64,000 bases of DNA. Source: Sphaerochaeta halotolerans (GTDB lineage Bacteria > Spirochaetota > Spirochaetia > Sphaerochaetales > Sphaerochaetaceae). Both the position numbers and the translations under genes were made by a program. Of this stretch, positions 45,117-46,742 are shown in pieces. The stretch spans positions 124,001 through 188,000 of the forward strand of contig NZ_QUWK01000003.1 in assembly GCF_003429665.1 (NCBI RefSeq), in the 5' to 3' direction. The number at the start of each line of letters is the position of its first letter. Position 1 is the stretch's first letter. Under the pieces are notes generated by a model. That model was not told where the DNA came from, did not search any database, and saw only the letters and a program-made list of their open reading frames with translations.

Positions 45117-45476
45117 ATGTATGCACAGGAAGTAGACGCCTATATTGCAGAGCTTGAGAAAGAAAAGAGAATACCCTTGGACCAGATACGTACTCTGGTC
45201 CATGCGGTAGTTCCTGAGGTCGTAGAGTCCATCAAGTGGAGGATGCCTACCTTCAGCTTGCCTGAAGTTGGGGATATCATCCATATGGCAGCTTTCAAGA
45301 GTCATATTGGGCTCTATCCGCTTCCTGAAGCTATCGATGATTTCCAGGAAGCATTGGCTCCCTATCATACAAGTAAAGGAGCAATCCAGTTCCCTTTAGG
45401 TTCTGCATTGCCCCTTGAAGTGATTGAGAGAATTGTTCAGTTCAGACTTGCTCTTATCAGCAAGAAGAAGCTTTAG
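45117..45476 (+). CDS. DUF1801/YdhG-like small protein
   Basis: 119 aa. YdhG-like fold suggested by VEVSIKW-type segment EVVESIKWRMPTFSLP and FKSHIGLYPLPEAI. Function unknown; some relatives are iron-chaperone-like or stress-related. ATG 45117 is preceded by GAGGAAAAGG, 10 nt after the aldo-keto reductase. The mini-CRISPR begins 5 nt after its stop. Confidence 0.8.
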   Translation: MYAQEVDAYIAELEKEKRIPLDQIRTLVHAVVPEVVESIKWRMPTFSLPEVGDIIHMAAFKSHIGLYPLPEAIDDFQEALAPYHTSKGAIQFPLGSALPLEVIERIVQFRLALISKKKL

Positions 45477-45480
45477 GACG

Positions 45481-45569
45481 AAAACACCCCCGCGTGAGCG
45501 GGGAAAACCGACCAAATAATGCAATATCTAGTCCATCGAGAGAAACACCCCCGCGTGAGCGGGGAAAAA
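45481..45569 (-). CRISPR. Two-repeat type I-E-like CRISPR unit with one spacer
   Basis: Two 28-nt repeats (45481-45508 and 45542-45569) that share a 26-nt core: AAACACCCCCGCGTGAGCGG then GGAAAA. The repeat-to-repeat period is exactly 61 nt, leaving a 33-nt spacer (45509-45541). On the minus strand the repeat takes the usual I-E form (TTTTCCCCGC...GCGGGGGTGTTTC), so transcription would be leftward from the AT-rich 45570-45622 side, where two TATACT boxes occur. No cas gene is in the window. Confidence 0.78.
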
Positions 45570-45622
45570 GCTTAGTATAAAAAGTATATCATAACTTCAG
45601 GAGATATTTGTAGGATTCTTGA

Positions 45623-46351
45623 CTACTTCGTCTTAGCAGTTGCACCCTTCTTGTCAAAGAACTGCACATTAAGGCTGGATGCCTTGAGGTGTTCAGCCAT
45701 TGCATGGTGCACAGCTTCTCTGTCTCTATTGCAGAAGGCTTGGTAGATTTCTCGGTGACGGGAAATGGCATCTTCGATACCTCCTTCTACAAGGATTCCC
45801 TTCCCCATGTAATCTCGGAGTAGAGACGTTAGAACACCAATAAACATGCACAGCAGCTCATTGCCTCCAGCCTGTGCAATGGTCAGATGAAACTGCTCAT
45901 CCAGCTTAACGCGTTCTTTCAAAGGGAGGGTTTTGTCCTCAAACCTGGAAAGGATTTCATCCATCTTCTGGAGATCTTCATCTGTGATTTTCTGTACTGC
46001 GAGATCGGCAGAAGAGAGCTCTAGAATTTCTCTTACCTGTGTCAAATCCTCAGATTTGATATGATCTACCTGCATGATGCGGTTGATGGCATTCATCACC
46101 GTATCGGTCTCAGGGCGGGTGATATATGCACCACTTCCATTCTTCAATGAGATAAGACCTCTTTCCTGCAATAGTTTCATCGCCTCCCTGATCACAGGGC
46201 GGCTTACGTTGTACTGTTTTGCAAGCTTCATCTCTGAAGGGAGTTTTTCAGAGACCTTACTCTTTGGCGAGGAGAGTATATATTCTTCCAGATGGTCAGC
46301 AACCTGTGAACTAAGATTTGTCCGAGTAAGCGAAATGTTTGAGATGTCCAT
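45623..46351 (-). CDS. FadR-subfamily GntR regulator (FCD domain)
   Basis: 242 aa. N-terminal winged helix (about residues 15-80; KLPSEMKLAKQYNVSRPVIR) and a C-terminal all-helical FCD ligand domain (about 95-225) with metal/ligand histidines in LDEQFHLTIAQAGGN and ISRHREIYQAF. GGAGG precedes ATG 46351. Located at the downstream end of the TRAP/DapA locus, which it probably represses; a TGTAAAGC motif occurs both in its own promoter and before dctP. Confidence 0.87.
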   Translation of the reverse strand: MDISNISLTRTNLSSQVADHLEEYILSSPKSKVSEKLPSEMKLAKQYNVSRPVIREAMKLLQERGLISLKNGSGAYITRPETDTVMNAINRIMQVDHIKSEDLTQVREILELSSADLAVQKITDEDLQKMDEILSRFEDKTLPLKERVKLDEQFHLTIAQAGGNELLCMFIGVLTSLLRDYMGKGILVEGGIEDAISRHREIYQAFCNRDREAVHHAMAEHLKASSLNVQFFDKKGATAKTK

Positions 46352-46403
46352 GCTAACCTCCGTTCCTGTAAAGCATACCTATTTTTACTATTTCTTTCTA
46401 TGG

Positions 46404-46742
46404 CTACTTGTGTAGCATTGAAATTGTACGTTCTGCACCCATTTGCAGGAATGAAATATCATCCCCACAACTAAAGAAATCGACTCCCAATGATTTGTAG
46501 GTTTCTATCATCTTTGGATCAGGGCCGATGGAAACCCCCACAGGTTTCTTGGCCTTCTTTGCTGCCTTGATGTGCATCAATAAGTTCTGTTTATCAAATG
46601 GCCCATGCTCAGCATCAATCCAGATGAAATCGTAGCCATGACGGGCAAGCGCTTCAGTAATTGCAGGATCATTGAGGAAGACATGGCCTCCAATGGCCGT
46701 GCCTTCCGCTAATCTCTTTCGAAACTCGTTTCCACGGTTCAT
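46404..46742 (-). pseudogene. Internally deleted HpcH/HpaI-family aldolase
   Basis: 112 aa against about 250 for the family. Residues 1-66 match the N-terminus (FIWIDAEHGPFDKQNLLMHI) and residues 67-112 match the C-terminus (KPVGVSIGPDPKM, LGVDFFSCGDDISFLQMGA). The central ~130 residues, which carry the metal-binding Glu and Asp and much of the barrel, are missing in frame. The junction lies in a lysine-rich AAGAAGG-type stretch that may have promoted deletion. An active aldolase is unlikely. It overlaps the DapA-like gene by 4 nt. Confidence 0.78.

Follow-up and report, generated by a model that had tools for sequence, protein, structure and literature searches.

A two-repeat type I-E CRISPR remnant in a Sphaerochaeta genome without cognate cas genes carries a spacer matching cas7e

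The two-repeat CRISPR unit at positions 45481 to 45569 of the window (the whole 64-kb stretch of DNA analysed here) belongs to the orphan anti-cas arrays, which are known already but occur here in subtype I-E and in a spirochaete: its cognate cas genes are absent from the genome, and its spacer matches the cognate cas gene of relatives. The unit is almost certainly the remnant of a type I-E locus, and its spacer was, with very little doubt, derived from a cas7e gene. Judging from sequence comparison, the unit is quite probably the last piece of a complete I-E locus that once stood at this site, with its one spacer directed against the cas7e gene of that same locus. The features of the region are as follows.

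45117..45476, plus strand: DUF1801-type gene, the left neighbour; it borders the full CRISPR locus in relative G114 and the CRISPR-free site in relatives G110 and G113
45481..45508, minus strand: repeat 1, at the trailer end (oldest); it begins AAAACACC, not GAAACACC, as does the trailer-end repeat of G114
45509..45541, minus strand: spacer of 33 nt, 5'-TCTCGATGGACTAGATATTGCATTATTTGGTCG in canonical direction; it matches G114 cas7e at 28/33 positions with the peptide LDGLDIALFG, and AAA lies 5' of the target
45542..45569, minus strand: repeat 2, now leader-side; its outermost base, at the deletion join, is off consensus (C to A on the plus strand)
45570..45622, no strand assigned: join of 53 nt separating array and gntR stop, aligned to the I-E leaders and gntR 3' flanks of relatives
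45623..46351, minus strand: GntR-family regulator gene (gntR), the right neighbour after the deletion

Two direct repeats (AAACACCCCCGCGTGAGCGGGGAAAA), identical over 26 nt, start at positions 45482 and 45543 and are thus 61 nt apart; the boundaries of the unit were set by alignment to the 28-nt repeat of relatives. On the plus strand the repeat folds into a 6-bp GC stem closed by a GUGA tetraloop, the hairpin that the initial annotation had recognised by its GTGA loop. A repeat of 28-29 nt with a GC stem, spacers of 32-33 nt and a period of 61 nt define I-E arrays, and the I-E array of G114, which lies beside I-E cas genes, has the same repeat and the same period, so that the earlier identification as a two-repeat I-E unit of 28 + 33 geometry was borne out. 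That annotation was silent on direction; the canonical I-E direction (GTTTTCCCCGCTCACGCGGGGGTGTTTC) is on the minus strand. A leader adjoining the first repeat is lacking, and the unit is therefore a remnant rather than a complete array. It lies, as had been described, in a short convergent gap after the DUF1801 gene, between the stop of this gene at 45476 and the convergent gntR stop at 45623. An Rfam search returned nothing relevant. No further copy of AAACACCCCCGCGTGAGCGGGGAAAA was detected in the 64-kb window at up to 3 mismatches, and 0 of 100 shuffles contained one. In the whole genome (2.93 Mb in 49 contigs, 99.99% complete) the 18-nt repeat core occurs only twice at up to 2 mismatches, both times in this unit. 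The hairpin is thus not scattered singly across the genome, the pattern by which the initial annotation would have recognised an unrelated repeat. The probability of a chance structure or of an unrelated dispersed hairpin repeat is negligible, since the genome has just these two copies, and a relative carries a complete I-E array at their site.

Profile searches for Cas6e (PF08798) and Cse1 (PF09481) yielded no match in the 99.99%-complete genome, and neither did protein searches for Cas3 and Cas7e with G114 queries. A genome-wide search for I-E cas genes and for a main array with the same repeat, which had been proposed as a check, found neither, so the unit is solitary and lacks Cas6e, Cas8e, Cas3 and Cas7e as first described. 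The only cas genes found in the genome form a type II-A locus encoding a 1402-aa Cas9, a Cas1 that is the single Cas1 match of the genome, Cas2 and an apparent Csn2. Its array consists of about 30 or more 36-nt repeats (GTTTGAGATAGGTGTTATCTCATAGGGTAGCTGACC) with a period of 66 nt, unrelated to the I-E repeat. The II-A locus (G000, contig C38:152000-171500; L032:6024-14300) looks complete, and a run of N is located just past its array (L032:14310-14524).

The site was then compared among 139 genomes of the family Sphaerochaetaceae. The 18-nt repeat core was present in 6 of the 139, all of them Sphaerochaeta, and within the genus I-E cas genes have a patchy distribution (Cas6e in 6 of 26 genomes, Cse1 in 7 of 26). 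In G114, 61 repeats occupy the same site, joined to the same DUF1801 gene end and with the same altered trailer repeat. Beyond this array follow a leader and the genes cas2-cas1-cas5e-cas7e-cas6e-cse2-cas8e-cas3, of which cas6e and cas8e were named by Pfam matches and the others by gene order and reading of the proteins. The site is free of CRISPR in G110 and G113, where the gene order is DUF1801-MerR-GGDEF-B12-binding-gntR. The comparison with relatives reveals one deletion in the window, from the leader-side repeat end to the gntR stop. With gntR directly after the array, the window has lost the leader and cas operon as well as the GGDEF and B12-binding genes. A full I-E locus at the same place in a relative and a window genome without its cas genes support the view, raised in the initial annotation, that the unit is a relic. 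The 53-nt join was considered as a degraded leader and as a gntR 3' flank, and both candidates were rejected: its similarity to the I-E leaders and to the gntR 3' flanks of relatives was not above the shuffled level. As it resembles neither, the leader of the window unit appears to be gone. On the minus strand upstream of the unit no promoter-like site was found, and read-through from gntR is the only evident route by which the unit could be transcribed.

A blastn comparison of the G114 cas region with the relic loci unexpectedly matched the relic spacers. With ungapped scoring, the window spacer agrees with G114 cas7e at 28 of 33 positions. The best of 500 shuffled versions of the spacer reached 23/33, and control searches peaked at 20, both in 45 kb of window sequence and in 8 kb of G114 DNA outside the cas genes. 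The translated spacer, LDGLDIALFG, is identical to the G114 Cas7e peptide, and all four internal mismatches lie at silent third positions. The best available cas7e belongs to another species and differs at five positions, the mismatches at spacer positions 1 and 4 lying in the seed; an exact target was not seen. The flanking AKR gene is 87.7% identical, close to the divergence between spacer and cas7e (5 in 33), which makes the lineage's own vanished cas7e the simplest source of the spacer, the alternative being an I-E element that came in from a close relative. Searches of the spacer against phages and plasmids, likewise suggested at the outset, offered no other origin: matches to phage, plasmid and viral-contig sequences were short and at chance level (E 0.3 or worse, none covering 80%), and the 139 family genomes contained no second copy at up to 3 mismatches. 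Phage targets of the G114 array gave no usable match from which a PAM could be derived. Overall, the two-repeat I-E unit and its relic nature withstood the comparison and the satellite array did not, while the cas7e match, which can only be seen with related sequences at hand, had been missed. The spacers of 'relic' mini-arrays therefore need a protein-level check against cognate cas genes, because cross-species matches fall below the usual nucleotide cut-offs.

Three further Sphaerochaeta genomes carry short arrays of this kind. G108 underwent a separate deletion: two repeats, an intact leader and the 3' part of cas2 are followed by DNA from immediately beyond cas3, and the junction is an 11-nt near-identity (TCTTTRATTCC; array region L034:8379-8761). 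With its leader, two repeats and an anti-cas8e spacer it is a better-preserved sister case. G101 (L036:15927-16127) and G092 (L035:9381-9520) have cas-less arrays of four and three repeats, respectively, each with leader-like DNA and located after a transketolase gene. No cas genes were present in the stretches read beside the G101 and G108 arrays; with a completeness of 85% and 88%, these assemblies leave room for cas genes elsewhere in those genomes, whereas G092 is a single contig. The AKR gene tree was too weakly supported to count independent cas losses, and it is the different sites and different deletion ends that argue for at least three of them.

The G108 spacer matches cas8e at 31/33 positions, and its translation ILETVWLNLF is identical to the Cas protein. 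All three G101 spacers match cas genes (cas7e, cas1, cas7e), with 28/33 to cas1 and 27/33 to cas7e for the first two; the third scores 22/33 against G114 cas7e and, at the corresponding cas7e site in G098 and G106, 26/33. Their translations are identical (VYDLADLYKE) or nearly so (DSGSSHMGTLE, 10/11; ISTHTVSNEI, 8/10) to Cas proteins. In 500 shuffles each of the window spacer, the G108 spacer and the first two from G101, the maximum was 22-24, and the observed score was never attained. Three of 500 shuffles of the third G101 spacer reached 22 against G114, so that its case rests on the translated match and on G098 and G106. In non-cas DNA the best scores of the relic spacers were 18-21. The two spacers of G092 did not match any of eight Sphaerochaeta cas regions above chance. 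One of them translates to SQYLEQKHDLF, which faintly recalls TAYLNTHHDQF of Cas8e, at a score not above the shuffled level. Among 154 spacers of two cas-positive relatives, none exceeded 23/33 against cas genes. Anti-cas spacers thus make up 5 of 7 in the relics and 0 of 154 in these relatives (hypergeometric 2.5e-8, with spacers treated as independent), and in the three cas-less genomes represented by the window, G108 and G101 all five remaining spacers are anti-cas. For four of the five anti-cas spacers, the bases directly 5' of the target are AA in one or more of the available cas operons (probability by chance about 1e-3, taking a background of 0.12), a motif that rests on five targets in proxy genomes; the second G101 spacer lacked it. 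Primed I-E adaptation gives spacers from one strand, and the G101 spacers fit this pattern, their three targets being on the same strand of the cas operon. As a separate observation, G106 (L123, L124) contains two different I-E cas operons in one genome, with different repeats.

These data suggest how the unit may have originated. While the locus was active, Cas1-Cas2 would have captured a 33-nt piece of cas7e, as the spacer identity and the AA motif indicate. The resulting crRNA may then have guided Cascade-Cas3 to the cas operon, and the survivors would be those cells that had lost it; we lean towards self-targeting as the cause of the cas loss. In the window, the deletion seen by comparison extended to the leader and to two genes next to the operon. 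Any other spacers were perhaps removed by recombination between repeats, or there had been none, and the anti-cas spacer was retained. If a cell acquired a spacer from itself, attacked its cas operon and survived by deleting it, in this presumed order, a cas-less genome with anti-cas spacers would result. The unit keeps the parts for one mature crRNA, namely the upstream repeat providing the handle, an intact spacer and the hairpin of the downstream repeat. If cognate I-E cas genes re-entered the cell, Cas6e and Cascade could process the unit and attack the incoming cas7e. This exclusion step needs transcription, which, with no leader left, would have to come from gntR read-through.

Orphan CRISPR3 and CRISPR4 arrays with anti-cas spacers were described in E. 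coli for subtype I-F (Touchon and Rocha, 2010; PMC2886076), and according to reviews (PMC8616872, PMC5972030) they were shown to block plasmids that carry I-F cas genes (Almendros et al., 2016; doi 10.1038/nmicrobiol.2016.81). The Sphaerochaeta arrays resemble them in being short, in lacking cognate cas genes while relatives have the full system, and in spacers that match cognate cas genes almost exclusively. They differ in subtype (I-E), in host (a spirochaete), in the loss of the leader from the window copy, in being known from sequence alone and in their targets, which are cas7e and, in the sisters, cas8e and cas1, compared with cas1, cas3 and csy2 in E. coli. Self-targeting spacers drive genomic deletions in I-F Pectobacterium and other organisms (reviewed in PMC8616872). 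There, too, the targeted region is deleted as an escape from autoimmunity, but in the present case the deleted target would be the effector operon itself, in an event reconstructed from comparison. Virus-borne mini-CRISPR arrays (PMC6858448) likewise have one or few spacers and no cas genes; these are carried by viruses with a role in interviral conflicts, whereas the window unit is chromosomal, occupies the ancestral CRISPR site and has a cas-derived spacer. A literature search that reached only a minority of subscription papers retrieved no earlier report of I-E anti-cas orphan arrays. As far as we found, a cas-less genome with a spacer against its own lost system had been known only for E. 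coli I-F, and from this one case it has been argued since 2010 whether anti-cas orphan arrays are scars of autoimmunity or selected barriers to CRISPR-Cas uptake. The question becomes testable by comparison with a further case from a different subtype and phylum, in which three genomes lack the cas genes, one sister has the full locus and others have an empty site.

The unit is accordingly either a scar of self-attack or a guard against regaining the system. It may well be a pure scar, in which self-acquisition from cas7e cost the cell its cas operon and left the unit inert and drifting away, although we give this somewhat less than an even chance. A deletion of this size is in keeping with Cas3-driven self-targeting, the unit has lost its leader, the search for a promoter-like site came up empty, and the genome encodes no Cas protein that could use the unit. 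However, both repeats and the cas7e reading of the spacer are unmutated, and if a 60-90-spacer array had shrunk passively, five anti-cas spacers out of five in three relics would be a rare outcome, unless the arrays had been short from the start. We consider only tentatively that selection maintains the unit because it destroys incoming I-E systems, as was proposed for E. coli I-F CRISPR3/4. Such a role would agree with the exclusively anti-cas content of three separate cas-less genomes, the patchiness of I-E cas genes in the genus (Cas6e 6/26, Cse1 7/26), the intact parts for one crRNA and the E. coli precedent, but the leader is lost in the window copy, each species is represented by one copy and no mobile element with a close cas7e was found (none in viral contigs; plasmid cas7e at most 57.5% identical among the matches listed). 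Whether the unit could still act as an exclusion guide in this strain is, going by its sequence, similarly doubtful. It is rather unlikely that the orphan I-E mini-arrays of Sphaerochaeta are selected 'vaccines against CRISPR-Cas' in general, which keep only anti-cas spacers (cas7e, cas8e, cas1) after loss of the I-E operon and hijack the Cas proteins of any I-E system that enters so as to destroy it; if they are, turning its own guides against CRISPR-Cas to keep it out would be a strategy that recurs in different subtypes and phyla and not an oddity of E. coli I-F.

The initial annotation had also considered a CreR-type regulator or a satellite array that relies on Cas proteins from another locus of the genome, and both are highly improbable. 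CreRs, cas-regulating RNAs from modulatory mini-CRISPRs, have been reported for I-B, I-E and V-A systems (PMC13131331), and like them the window unit is a tiny type I array, with a single spacer, directed at its own cas locus. CreRs, however, combine partial complementarity to cas promoters with resident Cas proteins, whereas here the match is near full-length and lies in coding sequence, and Cas6e, Cas7e, Cas8e and Cas3 are absent from the 99.99% complete genome, leaving no Cascade to guide. A satellite of the resident II-A system, the only one found, was rejected since it would have to share the II-A repeat, to which the I-E repeat is unrelated. It is improbable, though somewhat less so, that the hairpins were kept because they now terminate transcription of gntR. 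On the minus strand, where they lie downstream of gntR, the two repeats do receive terminator-like scores, but the T-run (TGTTTC, TGTTTTCG) is weak and no more than part of the repeat. A terminator function would leave the match between spacer and cas7e unexplained and could be true in addition to the origin from an I-E locus. Beside gntR (window 45623-46742), an aldolase-type gene encodes 112 aa compared with 254 aa in relatives and may be truncated by an internal deletion.
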